Below the pieces are notes generated by a model. That model did not search any database. It was not told where the DNA came from and worked only from the letters and a program-made list of their open reading frames with translations. The translations under genes were made by a program, and so were the position numbers. Below, piece by piece: positions 6,101-32,730 of a DNA stretch of 64,000 bases (positions within the stretch are counted from its first letter, which is position 1; every line of letters begins with the position of its first letter). This DNA comes from Candidatus Latescibacterota bacterium (GTDB lineage: Bacteria; Latescibacterota; UBA2968), in the NCBI GenBank assembly GCA_022821275.1, contig JAJEDY010000100.1:1-64000 (forward strand), in the 5' to 3' direction.

Positions 6101-8286
6101 ACCAGTTGCCCCTCCCGAATCTCCTGCCCATATACCCGCACTGTTTGTCCATTTGCGAGAGCTATGTTATTAACCCATCCATCGGCCAACTCCATCGCGC
6201 CAGCTTCGGCATCGGTCTCCCCATCAGAAACGCGTATCCACCCCTCGCCAGCTTCTGATTGCACAAAATAAAACTCCCTGTCATCGCGCAACGCGATCCG
6301 CCCGGCAATCGCAACTCGTCCATTATCCCCCACGGCGGGAATGTATTCCACATGTGCGACAGGAGAGACTTCACCCGCCTTCACGGGATATAAAACGTAT
6401 GACATCAGCATGGGGCCATCGCCCTCCGATTTAAAAATTGCCGTTGGAATGGGTTCGCACTGATAGGGTCCCCCTCGGGGAATCCAACCCTGCACGGTCG
6501 GTTCTTCCTGTCCACTTACAATCTGCACATCTATCGGCTTTGTCGAAATGGCATAAATGCCCAGATTGCTCTCTCCCACACTATTCTTTGTCATAACACC
6601 GCGCCCATTCGCCAGCACCTCGGCATCATCCGCATCCAGATGAAACATCGCTTCATACGTATGGGACGCCTCATCCGAGGGCCTGAGAATATCCGTCACA
6701 ATCCAGAACTCGGGTTTCACAAACAAAATCGACCGCGTATGTGTAACCGTCTGATCCCGCTCAGGTCCATATCCCAAATCGTAACTCGCCGACGCATAAT
6801 CGCATTTCTCGTTTGAAACCCACGTATGCGGCAGCGGCTCGGACACCACGTATTCCTCCCGCGATTTCCCGCGCTGATTCTGCTCCATCCCATCCACCAT
6901 CACCGTATTGTGCGCGCGGGTTGACAGCACATAAGTGCGCCACTGCGACGAATCGTATGGATAATTCCCCGGATCCACCACATGCACGCGGCCGTGTGCG
7001 TACAGCATGATATTCAGCTTATCTTCGTGCTGATGCCCATAGCCAAACGGACCGCCATCAAAAAAGAGATAGAGATCATCCGGTTCCCAGCCCGAACGCA
7101 TGACAAAATGCCCCGCATAGGGAAAAGCGCACGCCAGAGTTTGCGGCTTTGTTCCTTCCGCACCCCCAGAACCCGCCCATTGAAAATCCGTCCGTTCTGG
7201 AAAAAACCTGAACCCGCCTTGCATGTAGGGCACAATATCCGTCTGGCCGCCATCATTGAGCGCGGGCAAACGCAAATTGGGCATCGCCAGATACAGGTCG
7301 TAGTGATACATCCGCTCCAATTTTGCGACATAATCTGCCGGCAGGGGCAAATCATTTAACCGCGCAATCGCGAGCGCCATCACAAAATTTCGCAAACTCA
7401 CCTGATGATACCCACTCGACAACTCAATCTGCGCGCCATCCGGATAAACCTGCTCATCCAATTCCCGATACAGCGACTGCATTGCAATCTCGCGCCAGCT
7501 TGCGGCTTCTTTGAACTCGGGGAACAATGCCCCAACGTGATATTGCCCATTGGCCTGCATCGTCTGCCAGTTGCCACCGCGCGGCCATAACGTGAGATGC
7601 CGCGCGTGTTCGACCATACTCTTCACCATCAAACACACATCGTCATCCGCAAATGTTTTGGACGAAAGAAAATAGTAAAACGCCGCAGGCCACGTTTGCC
7701 CCATCCGAATTCCACATTCAATCGTACGCCAGCAATTCGTGCGATCCGTACCCATCTGTGCATCATCTTTCCAGGTATTGCCATCCTCATCCACCGGCAT
7801 CAACACATGTTCAATCCAGTGCCGCATCTGCCGTCTGAATGCCTCGGCATATTTTTCATCGCCTGTCTTCCAATACGCCTGCCCCAGCGTGACCCAAAAC
7901 GGATGGCGCGACAACTGCCACGTCCATTCCCTATAATTGATCGGATCCAATTCCCAATTGATCACATCCCCAAACGCCTCTTCCACATCGCAACTCACCA
8001 GCGTGTTTGCCACAATGCGGTCGGCTTTTTCGAGATCGACGTCTCTGATCGCACGGTCTCCCACGCGCACCAGTTCGACCTCGGCATCCCGGTCTTGAGG
8101 CTCTGACCGATTTCGCCAATCCGAAAACCATCGCGGATGTTCTCGCGTGCGAACGTGTTCTGCAAATGCACGCCGCGCCTCTGTCCAATCTCGCGCCTCT
8201 ACCGCCTTTTTCACAGCTCTCATATCTTCACGCGACAAATCGAGCGCCTCAAAAAACGCTTCATCGCTCAACCGTGGTCCACTCAT
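6097..8286 (-). CDS. heparinase II/III-family polysaccharide lyase
   Basis: About 729 residues with an N-terminal alpha-barrel-like domain followed by the heparinase II/III beta-sheet domain. The diagnostic stretch is FGYGHQHEDKLNIMLYAHG, with the family's HxHxD core, followed by VVDPGNYPYDS. Such enzymes cleave uronic-acid-containing polysaccharides (heparin-like glycosaminoglycans or alginates) by beta-elimination. No signal peptide is seen, so the enzyme may act on imported oligosaccharides in the cytoplasm. The ATG at 8286 is chosen over the upstream one at 8319 because CTGGAGGA sits just before it. First gene of the minus operon that continues into the membrane protein and sulfatase-fold genes. 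Substrate unknown. Confidence 0.82.
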   Translation of the reverse strand: MSGPRLSDEAFFEALDLSREDMRAVKKAVEARDWTEARRAFAEHVRTREHPRWFSDWRNRSEPQDRDAEVELVRVGDRAIRDVDLEKADRIVANTLVSCDVEEAFGDVINWELDPINYREWTWQLSRHPFWVTLGQAYWKTGDEKYAEAFRRQMRHWIEHVLMPVDEDGNTWKDDAQMGTDRTNCWRTIECGIRMGQTWPAAFYYFLSSKTFADDDVCLMVKSMVEHARHLTLWPRGGNWQTMQANGQYHVGALFPEFKEAASWREIAMQSLYRELDEQVYPDGAQIELSSGYHQVSLRNFVMALAIARLNDLPLPADYVAKLERMYHYDLYLAMPNLRLPALNDGGQTDIVPYMQGGFRFFPERTDFQWAGSGGAEGTKPQTLACAFPYAGHFVMRSGWEPDDLYLFFDGGPFGYGHQHEDKLNIMLYAHGRVHVVDPGNYPYDSSQWRTYVLSTRAHNTVMVDGMEQNQRGKSREEYVVSEPLPHTWVSNEKCDYASASYDLGYGPERDQTVTHTRSILFVKPEFWIVTDILRPSDEASHTYEAMFHLDADDAEVLANGRGVMTKNSVGESNLGIYAISTKPIDVQIVSGQEEPTVQGWIPRGGPYQCEPIPTAIFKSEGDGPMLMSYVLYPVKAGEVSPVAHVEYIPAVGDNGRVAIAGRIALRDDREFYFVQSEAGEGWIRVSDGETDAEAGAMELADGWVNNIALANGQTVRVYGQEIREGQLV

Positions 8287-8403
8287 GTCTTCCTCCAGTT
8301 CAATCACTTGCCTCCACAATACTCTGTATCCTCTCTTAAAATATCACAATGACACTGACCTGCCACTGTTTTCTGAGCAGGACAAAACCCCCGCGCTTTT
8401 TTT

Positions 8404-8436
8404 TTGTATTTGCCGCGCAACACACCTATATTGCGC
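8404..8436 (+). promoter_or_regulatory. candidate promoter with overlapping operator for the plus-strand catabolic operon
   Basis: TTGTAT (8404-8409) and TATATT (8427-8432) are 17 bases apart, a plausible housekeeping promoter just before the PhyH gene at 8458. A perfect inverted repeat, GCGCAA (8415-8420) and TTGCGC (8431-8436) separated by 10 bases, overlaps the -10 region. That is where a dimeric repressor would sit. The 171-bp gap also holds the start of the divergent lyase operon, so both may share control. No regulator gene is adjacent. Confidence 0.4.
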
Positions 8437-8457
8437 CACACATGAAAGGAGACCGTC

Positions 8458-9255
8458 ATGTTTTACGACACCGAGAAACGACAGTACAGGAAGCAAGGGT
8501 TTTGTATCGTCGATGACGCCGTTGATCCCGATATGCTAAAACCTCTGTTAGAAGCTGCGATTCGCACCAAGCAAAAGGTGCGTTCAGGCGAAGTGGATTT
8601 GTACACCCACCGCTCGGAGGACGGCGAACCCTGGGCGATTCGCGGATTATTTGCCCCCGAGATGAACGAGCCGATTTTTGCCGAATATCTGATGTCAGAA
8701 CCCATAATGAAATACGTGCGTGCATTCTTAGGCACACAGCTACAATTGGGAGGTGCCCTCATCTTCACAAATCCATATCAAGCGGATTACGGTTTTGGTT
8801 GGCACCGGGATTTTGGGAGTAAAGAACGCGACGGATCGTATCAAGTGGAAATGGAAATTTTGAATCGTCCCCAAAGGGGTTTGGGGTGGCATCTCGCACT
8901 GGTGGATGACTATTGCTTGCAAATTGTGCCCGGCAGTCACAAAAGGTACCGCACTGCCCACGAGCGCAGGTGCTTGTTAGAAGACCGCCACGACGATATC
9001 CCGGGACAGTATGCCGTGCCTCTCAAAGCAGGACAAACCGTATTTTGGACTGGCAATTTAATTCACCGCGGCGTAATGAAAAAGGATGTGGAGAGATTGA
9101 CCCTGGCCGGAAACTGGGGTATGTATTCAAAGGATGGCAAACCCGGCGAGACAGACCCGCGTCTGAAGTGGATGCTCGCGGACAATGTACGCGAATTTTT
9201 GCCAAAAGAAATGCTGCCATTGTACGATCGGTGGCGGGTATTGCAAAAGGGGTAA
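8458..9255 (+). CDS. phytanoyl-CoA dioxygenase (PhyH) family protein
   Basis: A 265-residue Fe(II)/2-oxoglutarate-dependent oxygenase. The iron-binding HxD is WHRDFG (His116, Asp118), and the distal histidine is probably His203 in TGNLIHRG. IVPGSHKRYR is typical of the family. It would hydroxylate or oxidatively cleave an unknown small substrate in the cytoplasm. GAAAGGAG lies seven bases before ATG. It opens a tightly spaced plus operon with enolase-superfamily, creatininase and FAH-family genes (gaps of 18-32 bases), which suggests it modifies an intermediate of the same route. It is one of three PhyH paralogues in the window. Confidence 0.85.
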   Translation: MFYDTEKRQYRKQGFCIVDDAVDPDMLKPLLEAAIRTKQKVRSGEVDLYTHRSEDGEPWAIRGLFAPEMNEPIFAEYLMSEPIMKYVRAFLGTQLQLGGALIFTNPYQADYGFGWHRDFGSKERDGSYQVEMEILNRPQRGLGWHLALVDDYCLQIVPGSHKRYRTAHERRCLLEDRHDDIPGQYAVPLKAGQTVFWTGNLIHRGVMKKDVERLTLAGNWGMYSKDGKPGETDPRLKWMLADNVREFLPKEMLPLYDRWRVLQKG

Positions 9256-25770: not shown

Positions 25771-25848
25771 GGTATGCCTTTCTATTTTTTGTTTTGGGTT
25801 ATATCAGCTAAAAGTTGCTGAAGGTGTGGTTTGGCGTTGGGCCTATCT

Positions 25849-26139
25849 TCATAACACTATCATTTCTTTTAGAACAGTGTCTCGAATTTCCTCCCGAAGC
25901 GACTCTTTAGGGACAACATCTACCTTGCGATGAAGCTTTGTCTCCAGAAAATCTCCGACCCTGATCAGATCGAATAGGCTTGCCTCATCGTCAAAATCTA
26001 TCAAGACATCTATATCACTGGTATTTCGCTGTTCATCCCGCGCTAAAGATCCAAATAAGCTAATTCCTCGCACTTTGTGTTGCAAAAGATCGGGTTTCAA
26101 TGCCTTTAGTGTGTTCACTATTTCTGTTTTATCCATCAT
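25849..26139 (-). CDS. minimal nucleotidyltransferase (MNT/HI0073 type)
   Basis: A 96-residue single-domain nucleotidyltransferase of the beta-polymerase fold. It has the family signature GSLARDEQRNTSDIDVLIDF (GS followed by DxD) and a third acidic residue in VDVVPKE. Such proteins usually work with a HEPN-domain partner as a toxin-antitoxin module, where the transferase adds nucleotides to the HEPN toxin. No HEPN gene is present. Instead, the ATG at 26139 overlaps the stop of a DUF4160 gene as ATGA. This makes a coupled three-gene unit with DUF2442. The longer frame to 26190 only reads into that neighbour. Confidence 0.85.
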   Translation of the reverse strand: MMDKTEIVNTLKALKPDLLQHKVRGISLFGSLARDEQRNTSDIDVLIDFDDEASLFDLIRVGDFLETKLHRKVDVVPKESLREEIRDTVLKEMIVL

Positions 26140-26396
26140 TCCAATGGAGCTATTTTGCCGGGATTCTCTAAATCTTGTGCCCGTTCCCAAGCTGTCCTCA
26201 ATTCCGCTTGATGTAAAGACGCCCAGCGAAGCACAAGTCGTTGCTCTCTTGTCGGCAAAAATCCTTTTAATACTTCAAGGGTTTCAATTCCAATAACTGC
26301 CTGGTTATCACCATACAGTGCGTGAAAATGCGCTGGCGGATGTTCTCTAAAATGAATTTGGATGATAATTCCGTAAAAGCGACAAAGTTCAGGCAT
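26136..26396 (-). CDS. DUF4160 domain protein
   Basis: An 86-residue small protein that begins MPELCRFYGIIIQIHFREHPP and continues HFHALYGDNQAVIGIETLEVLKG (shown partly), the signature of DUF4160. This family is commonly encoded next to DUF2442 and has been suggested to form a toxin-antitoxin-like pair, though I know of no settled mechanism. Its start overlaps the DUF2442 stop by 8 bases and its stop overlaps the nucleotidyltransferase start by 4 bases. All three are therefore translationally linked. The ATG at 26396 is preferred to the one at 26408 by family length. Confidence 0.82.
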   Translation of the reverse strand: MPELCRFYGIIIQIHFREHPPAHFHALYGDNQAVIGIETLEVLKGFLPTREQRLVLRWASLHQAELRTAWERAQDLENPGKIAPLE

Positions 26397-26673
26397 TCTC
26401 AATCGCAACTTGTGTGCCCGGCATCACTTCGGCCACAGATTTGCCCGTGAGTTCCATATATAGCGCGTCCGAACAAATATCCAAATCATCGCCCCAGGCT
26501 ATTGCGCCCCCATCTGCCACGCGCACAGTCTCAAAGAATGTGCGGTCATTCCAGGCTGCAAACACACCGCGCCCAGCCATATCTGAAAGGTCTATCTCAC
26601 CCGCAACCCCATCCGAATAGCGCACCCAGATGCAGTAACCATCACGCGGTTCCACTGCTATTGGTCGTATCAT
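26389..26673 (-). CDS. DUF2442 domain protein
   Basis: A 94-residue small protein with the DUF2442 pattern. An N-terminal strand-rich part (IRPIAVEPRDGYCIWVRYSDG, given in pieces as IRPIAVEP and WVRYSDGV) is followed by GEIDLSDMAGRGVFAAW and a Trp-Gly-Asp near WGDDLDICSDALY. DUF2442 proteins usually sit beside DUF4160 proteins and may be the DNA-binding or antitoxin partner. First gene of the overlapping DUF2442-DUF4160-MNT set, at the edge of the accessory island. Mode of action unknown. Confidence 0.82.
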   Translation of the reverse strand: MIRPIAVEPRDGYCIWVRYSDGVAGEIDLSDMAGRGVFAAWNDRTFFETVRVADGGAIAWGDDLDICSDALYMELTGKSVAEVMPGTQVAIENA

Positions 26674-26753
26674 TGCAGTTCTCCTTTTGCTATCGTTTCA
26701 ATTATCCCAACAAATAAAAAGTGTAGCAACAACGCCATTTTGTCAACCGCATT

Positions 26754-26835
26754 TCAAAATATCTGGCGTCTCTTTTCATCGTACGCATCGCATTCTCTGC
26801 CGCGGGAGAGACGATTTTCAAAGGATAGCGTGTTT
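26754..26835 (-). pseudogene. remnant of the 3' end of an XPB-like helicase gene
   Basis: Read on the minus strand, this non-annotated stretch ends FENRLSRGRECDAYDEK followed by RRQIF and TGA. The intact XPB-like helicase (33374-34774) ends VEDRISRRRRQHDAYDG, then KQREMF and TGA. The match covers about 22 residues ending at the same stop. At DNA level 14 bases are identical (CATCGTACGCATCG, at 26777-26790 and 33397-33410) within a longer similar stretch that runs past both stop codons. Upstream of about 26835 the similarity fades. It is a decayed copy of the helicase C-terminus and marks the left edge of the accessory island. Confidence 0.72.
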
Positions 26836-26871
26836 GCATGCACAGTGACGCAAAAATGACTTCGTGACGTT

Positions 26872-27246
26872 CTACCACACGGCATGCTTAAAGTGTGTTA
26901 AAATGGTTTGATCTTTTGTTACGAGTGTATTGTCGTTCAACCCCGCTTGCGCCACGATGATGCGGTCAAACGGATCGCGTGTCCATGAATACTGTTGAGC
27001 ACACTGGACAATTTGATAGAAGTTTTTATCACAGACATTAAGCCCTATTGCCTCTGACAAGGCGGAAATAACCGTTTGTGGTTTTGGGGTGATGCGTTTG
27101 ACCTCGAGCAAATATTGCAATTCTAAACTGACGATTGGAGAGATATAAATATCATTTTTATTAATGTGTGATCTGACCTTTGTGCTCAATTTTTCTGTTT
27201 GACCAGCATATAACCATACCACAACATGGGTGTCAAGGTAGATCAA
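26872..27246 (-). CDS. vapC: PIN-domain ribonuclease toxin (VapC type)
   Basis: A 124-residue PIN domain. Acidic residues fit the catalytic set: Asp5 in MIYLDTHVVVW, a Glu in VSLELQYLLEV, and Asp residues in SWTRDPFDRIIVAQA. VapC toxins cut tRNA or rRNA and stop translation until neutralised by their antitoxin. The gene overlaps the upstream antitoxin gene by 14 bases, the usual antitoxin-first order. The base composition is visibly more AT-rich than the surrounding housekeeping genes, which fits transfer. Just downstream is the XPB-gene remnant. Confidence 0.9.
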   Translation of the reverse strand: MIYLDTHVVVWLYAGQTEKLSTKVRSHINKNDIYISPIVSLELQYLLEVKRITPKPQTVISALSEAIGLNVCDKNFYQIVQCAQQYSWTRDPFDRIIVAQAGLNDNTLVTKDQTILTHFKHAVW

Positions 27247-27469
27247 GATTCACCTCCTTGTCCCACGTAATATGAACCAGATCATCAGGATTGCCTTTAA
27301 TCACATTCTTCCTTTTCCGCAAGTTTTGAAGTTTATCTGTACTTTCGATTGGTGCGATAATGAGCTTTCGATCTCCTTTATTGATTTTGACTGGCACACC
27401 CGTATTCAAGATCTCGTCCAATATCTGGTAAATATTCCCGCGCAATTCGGTTGGCGTAATTGTTTTCAT
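27233..27469 (-). CDS. Phd/YefM-type antitoxin
   Basis: A 78-residue antitoxin. It begins MKTITPTELRGNIYQILDEI, typical of the DNA-binding N-terminus of Phd/YefM proteins. VPVKINKGDRKLIIAPIES and a flexible acidic tail (ITWDKEVNLDLP) would mask the PIN active site. It forms an overlapping operon with the VapC-like toxin and probably represses its own promoter. A Shine-Dalgarno, GGGAGTG, lies upstream of ATG. One arm of a long palindrome (27479-27491) lies directly before the start and is a candidate operator. Confidence 0.87.
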   Translation of the reverse strand: MKTITPTELRGNIYQILDEILNTGVPVKINKGDRKLIIAPIESTDKLQNLRKRKNVIKGNPDDLVHITWDKEVNLDLP

Positions 27470-27478
27470 GTCACACTC

Positions 27479-27579
27479 CCGAGCAAATAGGTCACTTCAC
27501 GACAGACTGTAAAAGTTAAAATAATGAAAAAAGCGTACGTGTCAATATTTAACACGTACGCCTTTACCCTATTGCTCGG
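27479..27579 (-). terminator. nested palindrome: terminator of the helicase gene plus outer inverted repeat
   Basis: The inner stem, GCGTACGTGT (27533-27542) with ACACGTACGC (27552-27561), is a perfect 10-bp hairpin. On the minus strand it is followed by six U residues (A run 27527-27532), a good terminator for the upstream helicase gene. An outer pair, CCGAGCAAATAGG (27479-27491) and CCTATTGCTCGG (27568-27579), encloses it with a single-base bulge. The outer left arm lies at the antitoxin ribosome site, so it may double as an operator or be the end of a small palindromic element. The rest of the 218-bp gap shows no gene. Confidence 0.7.
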
Positions 27580-27687
27580 TTGTCCCGCATTTCAAAATAT
27601 ATCTCGATGTTTGTCAATCTCCCCTTGTCAGAATCAGGATGGGCAAAATTTGAAGATATACAGGATATACACCCGCATGCTCAATAT

Positions 27688-29787
27688 TCACCCCAATTCA
27701 CGCTCTATCAACCCAATATCTTCTCGGAATTTATTCTTGATTATCTGAATAATCCGACCACTCTCGACATGTTTAATAAACTCTAAAACTGAAGAAAATC
27801 CTAAATCCCTCGTACATCGGGCAGAAACAGTTCCATACGTAACTTCCAGTTGTTCAGCTATACTATGGAAAACCTCTGTATGGCTTTTACCATTCCTCAT
27901 CAGTTGAATAACTGGTATGAGATAATCTTGAAGATGATCATAACTTCCCGGCGGCGGTGGAGGTGGAGTAGGAGGCCCGTCACCATTACTATCAGGCAGT
28001 AGATCAATGTTCTGTGCTGTACGCTGCACCAGATACATTACTTTGTCGCGTGCGCTGTTGAATATCAACTTTGTATCAACTGGCTGGTTTTTCATTTTAG
28101 CCAACTCATTTTTCCAGCCGGACAGTTTTGACCTGAGATTATCTTCCCAATCGCCATACATACGCCACTTTTGAGGATTGTTGGTCGGACGTTTGTCAAC
28201 GGAAAGGCCGTTAAGATAACTTTCAAACAGGCGTTCCAACTCAGACTCGTCCTCCAATACTGTCTCGCGTTTTTCAATGAGCCTGCATAGCTCATTACGC
28301 CGCTTATCAGCAGCACCCATAACACTTTGCCGCTCTGTTTCAAGCAGTTCTTTAAGCAGAGTAGCCAGCCTGTTGCCAAGATCGTCTTCAATCGGGGATT
28401 CAGTCATATCGTTCTCCGGGTCGTAAATATCAATCAATTCATCCAGTGGTTCGGTAACAGGCAAATGAGCCTGTATATGAGCATCAATGTGGCACAAGTC
28501 ACACACCAACTGGTGAGCATCGCCACAGAAGTCCTCAAATCGCCAGCGTTTCCATGCACGCCATTTACCGCAACGTCCACAGTCTTTGCCGAAAGCGTAG
28601 CCACAGTTCCTGCAATGATGACTGGCGGCATGAGATACTGTTTCACATTCTGGGCACCAGACAATCGGTGCCTCGCCTAAAAATTGCTCTCCACGCGGTT
28701 TCAGAGACCATTCCCGATCTCCTTCGGGCAATCCGTGAGTCACTGAATTGGCGGCCAAATCCAGAATCAAACAGTTGCTGTTTTTTGGACGCAAGCCCCT
28801 GCCAGCCATCTGCAAGTACAAAGCAAGACTCTTGGTAGGTCGAGTAATTGCAATGCAGGCTGCGTCGGGCAGGTCAAATCCCTCGGTCGCAACGATTACA
28901 TTGACCAGCACTTTGATAGTACCATCTCTGAAACCGTCTATCGCTTTTTCTCGTTCCTCGCGATTACTGTCACCGAGAATGACCGCAGCCGGTATGCCAG
29001 CATCGTTAAACACGGCGGTCAAATTATGGGCGTGATTCACAGAAACAGCATAGGCGATGGTTGGCCGGTCAGCGGCGTGTTTTTGCCAGAACGCCAGCAC
29101 CCCCGCTGTCATGACATTTGGCCGGCATTGATTCGCCTGTTCAATGCCCGACTCAGTGTAATCTCCGGTGCGGTCAACCTCGCCACCAATGATGCGCTGT
29201 TCCGGTGGAGATATCAGTGTTTGGACACCACATAGCCAATTATCACCCTGCAAATCAGCGACTTGCGGCCCGCAGTTCAGCGTGCCAAACAGGTGGTCAA
29301 ATCCCTCCTTCTTCGACAACCGCCATGGCGTGGCTGTCATACCTAAAATGCGACCAGGCCATTGCTTCATCGCCCGCTCCCAACCCTCAGCGGCAGCGTG
29401 ATGTGCTTCGTCAATCACCATCAAATCATCGGTGTTATATCTGTTCCAAATTTCTCTGTTAGCGGTGCGTCTGCCCACGGTCTGAGCCATCAAAATGACT
29501 ACACCCTGACTCATTGCAGGCGCATCGGTTCCTGGCGTCCAGTTCACGTCTGTCATTGCCGAAATATGGGCATCTGTTAGCATCCCACAAGTCTGCGTGG
29601 CCAATTCCTTGCGATGCGTTAGCCAAACTACCTTGCGCCCGCCCGTGAGCCAGTCAGACAGCAGTGCCCCAGCGATAATAGTCTTGCCACCGCCAGTAGG
29701 CAGTTGCATCATCACCCGCGTTTTGGCATCTAAAGCATCTTGAACCTGCCTCAACAGGTCTTGTTGGTATGGTCGCAGTTCAACCAT
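27688..29787 (-). CDS. DEAH-box SF2 helicase with zinc ribbons and a C-terminal HTH-like region
   Basis: A 699-residue helicase of the restriction-enzyme ResIII/SSL2-like class. It has Walker A TGGGKT (31-36), DEAH (126-129), the SAT-like motif GMTATPWRLS and the motif VI region YLQMAGRGLRPK. Four CxxC pairs follow (WCPEC, HCRNC, CGRC, CDLC), making one or two zinc ribbons. A Glu-rich helical segment comes next, then a polyproline linker near residue 600 and a C-terminal part resembling a winged helix (EVFHSIAEQLEVTYGTVSAR). It lies in the AT-rich island, 52 bases after an unknown 389-residue protein on the same strand. Defence or DNA-processing by the pair is plausible but unproven. Confidence 0.85.
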   Translation of the reverse strand: MVELRPYQQDLLRQVQDALDAKTRVMMQLPTGGGKTIIAGALLSDWLTGGRKVVWLTHRKELATQTCGMLTDAHISAMTDVNWTPGTDAPAMSQGVVILMAQTVGRRTANREIWNRYNTDDLMVIDEAHHAAAEGWERAMKQWPGRILGMTATPWRLSKKEGFDHLFGTLNCGPQVADLQGDNWLCGVQTLISPPEQRIIGGEVDRTGDYTESGIEQANQCRPNVMTAGVLAFWQKHAADRPTIAYAVSVNHAHNLTAVFNDAGIPAAVILGDSNREEREKAIDGFRDGTIKVLVNVIVATEGFDLPDAACIAITRPTKSLALYLQMAGRGLRPKNSNCLILDLAANSVTHGLPEGDREWSLKPRGEQFLGEAPIVWCPECETVSHAASHHCRNCGYAFGKDCGRCGKWRAWKRWRFEDFCGDAHQLVCDLCHIDAHIQAHLPVTEPLDELIDIYDPENDMTESPIEDDLGNRLATLLKELLETERQSVMGAADKRRNELCRLIEKRETVLEDESELERLFESYLNGLSVDKRPTNNPQKWRMYGDWEDNLRSKLSGWKNELAKMKNQPVDTKLIFNSARDKVMYLVQRTAQNIDLLPDSNGDGPPTPPPPPPGSYDHLQDYLIPVIQLMRNGKSHTEVFHSIAEQLEVTYGTVSARCTRDLGFSSVLEFIKHVESGRIIQIIKNKFREDIGLIERELG

Positions 29788-29839
29788 AATGATCTAAAAA
29801 CCTTTAGAGTTATCATTGAGCATGCGCTTTCTCTACACA

Positions 29840-31009
29840 TTACTCAAAGGCTGTGAACACCGCCCTCACTTCCCGAATATGTGGGGCCTGATCTCTATGC
29901 GGAAAGACACAAGGGCGATCAAGCAATGTCGCTTGCACGAGTTGTTCAATTTCCTCTGTGCGTCGGCAGTCCAGTGCAATAACCTTACCGAAACAGCTCT
30001 TCTCGCTTAGTCGTGCGGGTAACACAGCGTCATAAGGGAGCGGTGGTCCGATTTTATTTATCAATAACTCCATCGTCTGTGCGAGACGCTTTGTGATCTT
30101 CGGCTGGCAGATAAAATCCGGGAAGCCAGTATCGGCCAGTGAGAAATCCACTACAAGGATACGAAGATAATCAAGGTCTGGTTCCCCACACTGACGTTTC
30201 TTCAGCTTGTCGAGTAGTTTTCGTCCCCATTCGCTCTCCGCGATATCTTTTGGATTGCCTATCCCGAAGAACAACTTGCTGTCGGTGGATTGGGTAGGCA
30301 GAGAAAAATAAATATCGCGATTTTCGGTATCATCGTAAACTTTCTGAAGAGTTGCTACCAGCCAAACCTTATCGTTCGGGCCTGCAAATTGCCGTTTATG
30401 ACCTGCATGTGCATTCTTTACCCATTTTGCCGCTTCTGGTTGCAGACAGGCAAGCCACTGACGAACGGCCTTCTCGTTACCGATTTCGTACGCATAAAAC
30501 CCATCCATATCTTTTGCGGTTTTAAGTTGGAGATCGATTTCGAATCCCAGGTCTATGTCCAGATACTTAAAAATCGAGGAGATAAGCCGCTTCACGAGTT
30601 GGAATCCAAAGAAATCAATGGGGCAATACAACTCAATGCATGCACTCAACCCACTGGCAGTCAGATCAATGTCGTAATATTTTAACCCTGGTCGTGCTGA
30701 GACCGCCGCCCACGCCTGCGCTTCTGGAATATTCTGGAGATGCGCGAGAAGGAAAAGCTCACCAAGTGCCTGTTCGAACTGGATTGGATCGGTTTGCTGC
30801 ACGACCCGTTTACCTATAGTGTCTGAAGATGGCAGGTGTTTGTTCAGTAATATGAGCAATTTTTCAAGGTGCTCGTAGTGCGTATTGCCGAGTACACGGA
30901 CGATCTCAAGTTCGCTTCGGCCTGAACACGGTATATTGATCACTCTGTCGATTTCAGGAAAACGCTGTATCGCATCATGAACGTCTTGAGTGATTGGATA
31001 GCTTAGCAT
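29840..31009 (-). CDS. protein of unknown function encoded with the island helicase
   Basis: A 389-residue soluble protein that I do not recognise. The ATG at 31009 is preferred to 31036 because AGAGGTCAAGAA lies before it. The middle part has a pattern reminiscent of PD-(D/E)XK nucleases: a helix with Glu (FEQALGELFLLAHL), then KYYDIDLT and ACIELYCPID. The expected ExK reads E-L-Y, so the lysine is missing and the fold call is weak. No membrane segment or signal is seen. It precedes the helicase gene by 52 bases, which suggests co-transcription. It may supply target recognition or cleavage for the helicase. Function unknown. Confidence 0.65.
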   Translation of the reverse strand: MLSYPITQDVHDAIQRFPEIDRVINIPCSGRSELEIVRVLGNTHYEHLEKLLILLNKHLPSSDTIGKRVVQQTDPIQFEQALGELFLLAHLQNIPEAQAWAAVSARPGLKYYDIDLTASGLSACIELYCPIDFFGFQLVKRLISSIFKYLDIDLGFEIDLQLKTAKDMDGFYAYEIGNEKAVRQWLACLQPEAAKWVKNAHAGHKRQFAGPNDKVWLVATLQKVYDDTENRDIYFSLPTQSTDSKLFFGIGNPKDIAESEWGRKLLDKLKKRQCGEPDLDYLRILVVDFSLADTGFPDFICQPKITKRLAQTMELLINKIGPPLPYDAVLPARLSEKSCFGKVIALDCRRTEEIEQLVQATLLDRPCVFPHRDQAPHIREVRAVFTAFE

Positions 31010-31019
31010 TTCTTGACCT

Positions 31020-31364
31020 CTACGGATATAAACCAATACTGCAAACAGTTTTAGACGTCACCGGAGGGCACAACTCATTATCTTTCTTGCCGAAACTTCT
31101 GCCAAAAATCAGAAAATCGCCAAACCCAATTGTGCCATCTCCATCCAAATCGTACTTCGCGTCATACTGCTCATCGCCGCGACTTAATCCAAACAGGCTT
31201 GTAAAAAGCAAAAAGTCGCTAAAATCAACAGTACTATCACCATTAAAGTCGGGATTAGGAGTTTGAGGTGTAATGTATAGCGACATATCCCACAGCAGAA
31301 CTGTGCTATCCCCAAACAATAACAAAGCCTTTGGGGTTGATATAAGGCAGTAGATACTATACAT
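31020..31364 (-). pseudogene. truncated C-terminus of a WD40-plus-dockerin-like protein
   Basis: The frame reads GDSTVLLWDM, the end of a WD40 blade. It continues into two EF-hand-like dockerin repeats: DFNGDSTVDFSDFLLFTSLFG and DLDGDGTIGFGDFLIFGRSFG (given without flanks). A tail with CPPVTSKTVC follows. The same dockerin pair occurs in the secreted protein at 58002-58592. The frame has neither a signal peptide nor the many preceding WD40 blades such proteins carry. The frame begins at a short direct repeat flanking a MITE-like element, so the 5' part was probably lost when that element entered. It ends 10 bases before the unknown protein's start. Confidence 0.65.
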
Positions 31365-31582
31365 CTATTTTTTAACGCGATGTGTGACTTCAAAACTGCC
31401 ATAGAATAATGCCGACAAATAGATATAAAAAAGTCAAAACCACTGGATTGCGGCTAACCCCCTGCCGCAATGACGACTCTAAAACCTTTGTTTTTCTGAC
31501 TGCTGACTATTGATCGCTTGTTTAGCTGAATACGATAATAAAGTCACACATGACGTTATTTTTTAATCAGCATCTATTTTTT
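31362..31582. mobile_element. MITE-like element with terminal inverted repeats and a central REP palindrome
   Basis: AACGCGATGTGTGACTT (31374-31390) and AAGTCACACATGACGTT (31541-31557) are inverted repeats with two mismatches, enclosing 150 bases with no gene. At the centre lies a palindrome, ATTGCGGC (31447-31454) with GCCGCAAT (31464-31471). The 12-base sequence CATCTATTTTTT occurs directly before the left end (31362-31373) and again at 31571-31582, a possible target duplication with 13 extra bases at the right. The element separates a truncated WD40/dockerin gene from an unrelated membrane protein gene. No transposase is present, so it would have moved in trans. Confidence 0.5.
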
Positions 31583-32141
31583 GGAAAGATGCGAAAACAC
31601 GCATTCGACTGATAGAATTAGCCGCGTCTAAATTATCTACTTTAAGTTCAAAAGTACCTGAAATTTCTTTCGGAACTGATGGAAGAATAACAAATTCAGA
31701 TCCACCCCGGGGGTTATGTCGCGCAATCTCTAATTTGTTAGCATCCCAAAAACGAAGACCATAATTCACTCGTAATCTTTTTCCTGTTTCATTATACCAG
31801 TTTATTTTATATGCCCCTTTCACTGCAATCATCCCTACCTCTCTTCGCGTTTCTGCTACTTTTCCCCTTAACTCTCTATGAGATATAAATCTCCAAATCG
31901 CGTCATTGCAAATCTCTCTTGCGTCAACTTTCCAACATCCCGTCTCTTCTTTGCGAAGTTCAGTATTTAATCCTGATTGTAACTTTCCACACCCAAACAC
32001 GGCAAACAAGAACAGAAGTGAAATCCCAAAATTCCATCTCCATTTTTGGAGATCAGGCATCACTTTCTTCTGATAGAAAAGGAACCAAATTGCAGGTACT
32101 ATGCCTAAAAGTTTTCCAACATAAATCGCTGTATACATCAT
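31563..32141 (-). CDS. membrane-anchored protein of unknown function
   Basis: About 192 residues, unrecognised. Two hydrophobic stretches lie near the N-terminus (YVGKLLGIVPAIWFLFY and FGISLLFLFAVFGCG). The second ends in a lipobox-like FGC, so either two membrane helices or a lipid anchor is possible. The remaining 140 residues look like a beta-rich extracytoplasmic domain (YKINWYNETGKRLRVNYGL, FELKVDNLD). A GTG at 32147 is possible, but an ATG at 32141 or 32138 fits AAGGTGG better. AT-rich, inside the island, and its 3' end abuts the MITE-like element. Confidence 0.5.
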   Translation of the reverse strand: MMYTAIYVGKLLGIVPAIWFLFYQKKVMPDLQKWRWNFGISLLFLFAVFGCGKLQSGLNTELRKEETGCWKVDAREICNDAIWRFISHRELRGKVAETRREVGMIAVKGAYKINWYNETGKRLRVNYGLRFWDANKLEIARHNPRGGSEFVILPSVPKEISGTFELKVDNLDAANSISRMRVFASFQKIDAD

Positions 32142-32405
32142 CTCCACCTTGTTGAAATGATCTCTGTTTCATTCACCATTGGGAGAGCAATATAGAATGA
32201 ATCAATGAGATAGACCGACGCCTGTATTCTTCATATGTCAAAACACTGCTCGTCGCGTGCCAGAGGTGAAATGTAGCCCCCACCCCGGGTTATGAGAATA
32301 CAGCACCTGCTACGGTGCATATAGTCGCTATTCCTTCTCGCTCGCGCTTAATACGATCAACTTCATGCAGAGGGCTTGTGCTGTACAAATAATATGATGA
32401 AATAT
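32142..32405. other. gene-poor stretch with a possible coding relic
   Basis: No intact gene is seen. On the minus strand a frame open from 32424 to the TAA at 32290 reads, near its end, HEVDRIKREREGIATIC followed by TVAGAVFS. It looks protein-like but I cannot assign it, and it has no start codon. It may be the end of a deleted gene. The other strand is also partly open here, so chance cannot be excluded. Confidence 0.25.
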
Positions 32406-32468
32406 ACAAGTTCTGTACACTTGTTCAAATTTCGCTTTGACAAAAACTAACATACTTGATATGTATGT
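32406..32468 (+). promoter_or_regulatory. promoter with two palindromic operators upstream of the antitoxin relic
   Basis: TTGACA (32437-32442) and TATGTA (32460-32465) are 17 bases apart. Two inverted repeats share the same 6-7-6 geometry: ACAAGT/ACTTGT (32406-32411, 32419-32424) and ACATAC/GTATGT (32450-32455, 32463-32468). The second covers the -10 box. This is the layout expected for an autorepressed antitoxin promoter. Confidence 0.55.
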
Positions 32469-32486
32469 AAAATGAGGAAAACAACG

Positions 32487-32660
32487 ATGACACACAAAGA
32501 ATTAAAAATGAAGGCACTTACAGACCCCGAAACCAGGGCCGAGTATGAAGCTCAAAAAACTGAGTTTGAATTACTCGACAAGCTGTTAGACGCCAAGAAA
32601 CGCGCTGGATCGCGGCTAAAACCATGCCGCGATGACGGCTTTGTTCATGGACTTGACTGA
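32487..32660 (+). pseudogene. HigA-like XRE antitoxin relic cut by a REP-like palindrome
   Basis: The frame starts MTHKELKMKALTDPETRAEY and continues ELLDKLLDAKKRAG, the N-terminus of XRE-family antitoxins of the HigA type. At the point where the helix-turn-helix (usually LTQ-x-E-VA) should begin, the sequence passes into a palindromic repeat (32605-32640). It then ends SRLKPCRDDGFVHGLD. The DNA-binding domain and any toxin gene are missing. GAGGAAAACAACG precedes the ATG at 32487. An earlier ATG at 32472 is in frame but lacks a ribosome site. The intact operator-like promoter upstream supports a former toxin-antitoxin locus. Confidence 0.6.
32609..32633. repeat. REP-like palindrome, second copy
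   Basis: ATCGCGGC (32609-32616) and GCCGCGAT (32626-32633) form a perfect 8-bp palindrome within CTGGATCGCGGCTAAA and CCGCGATGACGGCT. The copy at 31447-31471 has the same frame, CTGGATTGCGGCTAA and CCGCAATGACGACT. The CTGGAT..stem..ATGACG layout resembles dispersed repeats known from several proteobacteria. This copy interrupts the XRE antitoxin relic. Confidence 0.55.
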
Positions 32661-32705
32661 TACCCCACAGTACGCGATAAGTTTTTTACAACTGCGATAG
32701 AAAAA

Positions 32706-32730
32706 GCCCGGTTCCTTCTCGGAATCGGGC
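32706..32730 (-). terminator. terminator after the methyltransferase gene
   Basis: GCCCGGTTCC (32706-32715) and GGAATCGGGC (32721-32730) form a stem with one mismatch. On the minus strand it is followed by five U residues. A T run also follows on the plus strand (32738-32746), so it may stop transcription in both directions. Confidence 0.75.

Follow-up and report, generated by a model that had tools for sequence, protein, structure and literature searches.

The RadD-like helicase encoded in the window (the whole stretch of Candidatus Latescibacterota DNA analyzed here, 64,000 nucleotides) and the 389-residue gene beside it are not a conserved pair. Among 18 related RadD-like helicase loci, the neighboring gene is present only in the window, and sequence comparison shows that the C-terminal ends of the helicases have been exchanged between relatives. 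The explanation we propose, to which we give about an even chance of being right, is that this protein is a stand-alone RadD-like helicase with an exchangeable tail, acting as a sensor or remodeller of DNA and carried as cargo of a genomic hotspot.

Two co-oriented open reading frames were found on the minus strand where the initial annotation had placed them (Table 1). The 389-residue frame lies upstream, counted from an ATG, and would encode 398 residues from an alternative TTG start at 31036; a gap of 52 bp separates it from the helicase gene. Overlapping this alternative start is a short, remnant-like ORF (31020-31364) in which a dockerin type I repeat was matched (2.5e-5).

Table 1. Features of the helicase locus, its hotspot, and one related locus. 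Positions refer to the window, except for the last row, which refers to locus L073.
Feature	Position	Strand	Basis
Hypervariable hotspot between DUF5069 and O-methyltransferase-like genes	25795..32718	.	Sister-species comparison
28-bp repeat	26722..26749	+	Hotspot of most sister species; beside G032 helicase at another site
Phd/YefM antitoxin (27233-27469) and PIN toxin (26872-27246)	26872..27469	-	Library search
Intrinsic-terminator-like hairpin, 17 pairs, after helicase and before Phd/PIN	27529..27565	-	Sequence
RadD-like SF2 DEAH helicase, 699 aa	27688..29787	-	Library searches and alignment
Tail type A, residues 621-699, all-helical (relatives have type B, DUF4357, or unnamed type C)	27691..27927	-	Sequence comparison, model
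Proline-rich linker, about residues 604-613	27949..27978	-	Alignment
Conserved helical module, residues 466-593, common to fused and free-standing relatives	28009..28392	-	Sequence comparison, model
Second Cys/His element, CGRCG...C...CDLCH, residues 403-433	28489..28581	-	Alignment
First zinc-ribbon-like element, CPEC...CRNC, residues 378-395	28603..28656	-	Alignment; sub-threshold UPF0547/DZR
RecA-like ATPase core, residues 1-350 (PTGGGKT, DEAH, TATP, QMAGRGLR)	28738..29787	-	Pfam, alignment
389-aa neighbor, upstream of helicase, co-oriented	29840..31009	-	ORF call; no curated-strength library match
Tandem ORFs pairing the module with a type C tail, immediately after tail-B helicase (L073)	7075-8031 and 8053-8970	-	Sequence comparison

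The identity of the downstream gene as a DEAH helicase was confirmed by Pfam matches to ResIII (7.7e-23) and Helicase_C (3.8e-15) and by a complete set of core motifs, with PTGGGKT at residue 30, DEAH at 126, TATP at 151, and QMAGRGLR at 326. The nearest solved structure is RadD (PDB 6jde/7r7j, E 4.8e-26, residues 3-381), a match that identifies the SF2 core as homologous to RadD. RadD is also the top model of the NCBIfam library, at 129.7 bits versus an equivalog cut-off of 720 bits. The best PHROG family is the DNA helicase family phrog_16 (1.1e-82), and the core is contained in 1806 phage records. Sequence thus places the window helicase in SF2, as a DEAH protein of RadD/phage phrog_16 type whose ATPase motifs are intact. 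RadD itself is a DNA repair protein that stimulates RecA strand exchange and binds SSB.

Two Cys-rich elements, putative zinc fingers by sequence, follow the core. They had been described as extra zinc ribbons, but E. coli RadD already has two zinc fingers (PMC9049331), so two such elements are expected in a relative; the UPF0547/DZR matches fall far below cut-off. The second element is a clade signature in the alignment, conserved in the helicase clade and missing from L018, a phage-type relative. Of the polyproline linker noted at the outset, the proline run stands, but it is missing in the nearest relative. The end of the protein had been considered winged-helix-like. An AlphaFold2 model of the C-terminal half (residues 450-699, eight sequences, pLDDT 79, pTM 0.42) does not bear this out, being all-helical without a wing, and a fold search with the model found no significant match in PDB or among viral models.

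The 389-residue gene is almost unique as judged from sequence searches. No relative of its product was found in genome_contigs, viral_contigs, phages, plasmids, PDB, PHROGs, NCBIfam, or PADLOC, nor in 400 Chloroflexota genomes, where the search had no positive control. The sole other copy is an in-frame, internally deleted remnant in a genome of the same genus (G035), in which residues 1-73 run directly into about 357-387; synteny around it is conserved, and no helicase adjoins it. Over the 73 codons, 13 of 24 nucleotide differences lie at third positions, and 12 of the changed codons are silent and 8 are not. This third-position bias and the silent changes suggest, from a small sample, that the gene was probably a real protein-coding gene.

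The initial annotation had assigned to this protein a PD-(D/E)XK-like pattern. The catalytic D...ExK motif of such nucleases is absent, with ELY replacing ExK, and the loose pattern without the Lys arises at chance level: it appeared in 42% of 5000 shuffles, and 14 of the window's 36 stop-to-stop frames with a length of 300 aa or more also contained it. Because the pattern was the sole support for a nuclease-like partner, that assignment is left unsupported. A single-sequence AlphaFold2 model of the protein (pLDDT 34) was too poor for a fold search. Two other candidate identities were rejected: an ISAs1-type transposase (PF13808, DDE_Tnp_1_assoc, 8e-5), which scored 23.1 bits against a cut-off of 32.3 and had no genome-level match, and kinship with a PD-T7-1 homologue, to which comparison revealed no similarity.

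If the two genes formed one system, as had been suggested, they should recur together. The 389-residue gene is missing at all 17 helicase loci outside the window, and no co-occurrence in unrelated genomes of the kind expected of a conserved two-gene defense system was seen, an outcome that the initial annotation had itself named as refuting the idea. The gene directly upstream of the helicase varies among the loci compared: a WDPFWI protein in G032, and elsewhere genes that, read from their sequences rather than from library matches, carry HNH-like cysteine motifs (G021) or appear site-2-protease-like (L029) or DinB-like (L030). Homology between the window and G032 stops about 15-20 bp before the helicase start codon. 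The WDPFWI protein (phrog_19541) was considered as the true partner and rejected; in G032 it immediately precedes the helicase, in G021 it is about 5.5 kb away, and near the other helicases it is absent. The WDPFWI proteins at two helicase loci (L020 7160-7933 and L022 1684-2439) are 58% identical. Within the window, the strong terminator-like hairpin between the helicase stop codon and the Phd/PIN genes suggests that the 389-residue gene and the helicase may be cotranscribed, apart from the toxin-antitoxin genes.

An operon-like order, the short gap, and a shared hotspot would suit a Hachiman-like defense system, in which the helicase senses DNA and the 389-residue protein is the nuclease. 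Hachiman consists of the HamA nuclease and the HamB helicase (PMC12278908). We consider this reading improbable, given the lack of co-occurrence, the chance-level nuclease pattern, and the failure of the 389-residue protein to match HamA (PF08878) or any PADLOC model; the helicase falls short as a HamB, its PADLOC match reaching only E 0.0014 over 70 residues. The statement that no described system contains this exact pair still holds, as no known pair matches.

What varies in the helicase family is its C-terminal end. The relatives comprise one from Candidatus Latescibacterota (G032/L020, 80%), several from Chloroflexota (including L021, L029, and L030), and a truncated copy (G021/L022); in one Chloroflexota order, 12 of 250 genomes have relatives, at 15 places in total. 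Within the phylum of the window, 7 of 64 genomes have a match at 1e-30, mainly fragments or the C-terminal module alone. Family members retain the core, zinc region, and helical module, and after about residue 600 continue into one of three unrelated tails; near this point the window protein ceases to be homologous to those Chloroflexota members that extend to it. Type A is found in the window and G032. Four members have type B, a DUF4357 domain, with consistent E values of 1.8e-7 to 2.7e-5 that fall short of the curated cut-off, and type C occurs in tandem in two. Two members have neither B nor C. A type A tail fragment elsewhere in the window's own genome (L031 5131-5781) overlaps an ORF whose end resembles the zinc ribbon of TnpB.

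Three lines of evidence match the pattern expected from exchange of a C-terminal cassette. On a tree of the core, types B and C are intermingled within a clade of good support; forcing the four B rows into a single clade cost 33 log-likelihood units and was rejected (p-AU 0.0048), and grouping three nearby C rows cost 26 units (p-AU 0.03). At the orthologous loci L071 and L074, DNA identity is about 90% in the flank upstream and over roughly the gene's first 1000 nt, drops through the helical module, and is unrecognizable by about nt 1800, with unrelated tails beyond. Finally, downstream of the L073 helicase, which ends in tail B, lie two orphan ORFs that combine the module with tail C; the DNA of each is 81-82% identical to the helicase end fused in L070. 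These orphans have their own start codons, the first with an RBS-like GGAGG. Damaged copies carrying truncations, stops, or frameshifts (L020, L022, L030, L074, L079) fit accessory turnover, but fit decay too.

We tentatively suggest, at well under even confidence, that the clade undergoes C-terminal cassette switching: the helical module would serve as a recombination and docking joint, orthologous loci would trade the three tail types, and spare ORFs of module plus tail would be kept downstream or free-standing, which would diversify a sensor that counters phages or other mobile DNA. Programmed or ongoing exchange goes beyond what the pattern shows and is hypothetical. A further idea raised by the orphans is that module and tail on their own form the primary unit, as a small protein with a regulatory or conflict function, and that fusion made the helicase one of its carriers. 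Besides L073, this idea draws on free-standing type A modules in G020-G023, where no helicase was found within stretches of 16-17 kb, and on a hypothetical protein of Thermomicrobium, encoded next to parAB, that has a type C end. Most modules seen are nonetheless helicase-fused, although the searches mainly used the helicase as query, and we rate the idea as a long shot.

The description of the surroundings as a toxin-antitoxin-rich island holds more strongly than originally claimed. The island contains an MNT-like nucleotidyltransferase, DUF4160/DUF2442, and Phd/PIN genes, and lies inside a hotspot whose flanks are about 90-95% identical among sister species and whose interior is filled differently. 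G036 has an empty site of 93 bp. Other genomes carry a nucleotidyltransferase/HEPN-like pair (G029), a 1447-aa TmtA-family protein (G031, 1.8e-77), or a RES/HEPN-RES protein with small TA-like genes (G037), with further cargo in G030, G032, and G033. The PADLOC TmtA protein of the G031 hotspot (L045 8271-12614) has a NO VEIN-type C-terminal domain. These comparisons support the window genes being cargo of a hotspot with turnover of toxin-antitoxin and defense-type genes. No Rfam element was found within the island. The 28-bp intergenic repeat, TGTAGCAACAACGCCATTTTGTCAACCG, extends to about 50 bp and is present in 0-4 copies per genome and absent from reversed controls; its copies are flanked by differing genes, between TA or defense-type cargo, and it is possibly a recombination seam.

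In the explanation we propose, the helicase would be an accessory protein acting alone, one of a clade of RadD-like SF2 DNA helicases or translocases with a RecA-like core, zinc region, and helical module. It would most likely use ATP to sense or remodel abnormal DNA ends, junctions, or intermediates of phage replication. The region past about residue 600, helical type A in the window, would be an exchangeable recognition or partner-binding tail that selects what the helicase recognizes. The toxin-antitoxin/defense hotspot would carry it as cargo, and the 389-residue gene would be cargo unrelated to it, perhaps cotranscribed with it. A role in conflict is suggested by the hotspot, the rapid turnover, the link of DUF4357 to the PADLOC candidate PDC-S14 (whose end the tail matches at 2.5e-16), and the neighbors of other copies: a PD-T7-1 homologue (PADLOC 1.6e-160, L022 3767-5146) about 3 kb from the truncated G021 copy, genes for a PvuII-type restriction endonuclease and a DNA methylase near a Chloroflexota copy (L077 13835-15608), and PIN and HicA toxins. 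We regard a defense role for the helicase as plausible.

The same anatomy fits repair, since RadD is a repair protein, and DNA repair is a serious rival to a conflict or defense role. The helicase could be a RadD-type helper in repair or recombination, or a domesticated phage replication helicase, with no defense role and a tail for recruiting SSB, RecA, or other host proteins. The kinship of the core with RadD and phrog_16, its abundance in phage records, and the location of most Chloroflexota copies amid ordinary metabolic genes all favor this alternative. Its patchy presence in both the window's phylum and the Chloroflexota order would be unusual for a housekeeping repair protein, as would the exchanged tails, orphan modules, and broken copies. 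We assign repair a distinctly minority probability.

The initial finding was therefore borne out in part, with the island supported and the pairing not, and it cautions that adjacency of genes in a hotspot does not make a system. If the tail of our proposed stand-alone helicase sets specificity, bacteria related to sponge symbionts and known chiefly from metagenomes would possess a helicase whose recognition end can be swapped, much as in restriction specificity subunits or the ends of polymorphic toxins. The L071/L074 and L070/L073 pairs provide ready sequences for probing what each tail recognizes.

Among known proteins, E. coli RadD (YejH) shares the SF2 RecA-like core, the zinc region, and a separate C-terminal domain (PMC9049331), in place of which the window helicase has a clade-specific helical module and exchangeable tails. 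Phage DEAD/DEAH helicases of PHROG 16 share the core and first zinc element, whereas the phage-type relative L018 lacks the second cysteine element and the helical module. Hachiman likewise places a helicase beside another gene (PMC12278908), but the HamB match here is confined to 70 residues at E 0.0014 and the HamA domain is missing. DUF4357 occurs in GmrSD homologues and GIY-YIG proteins (PMC4619093), and these and the PDC-S14 candidates resemble our family through this tail, which is confined to type B and absent from the window copy. The arrangement also resembles the CdiA-CT/Rhs orphan modules, in which one scaffold carries variable C-terminal ends with orphan ends downstream (PMC3150448); here, by contrast, the scaffold is an intracellular-type helicase, no immunity genes were seen, and the L073 orphans start independently.
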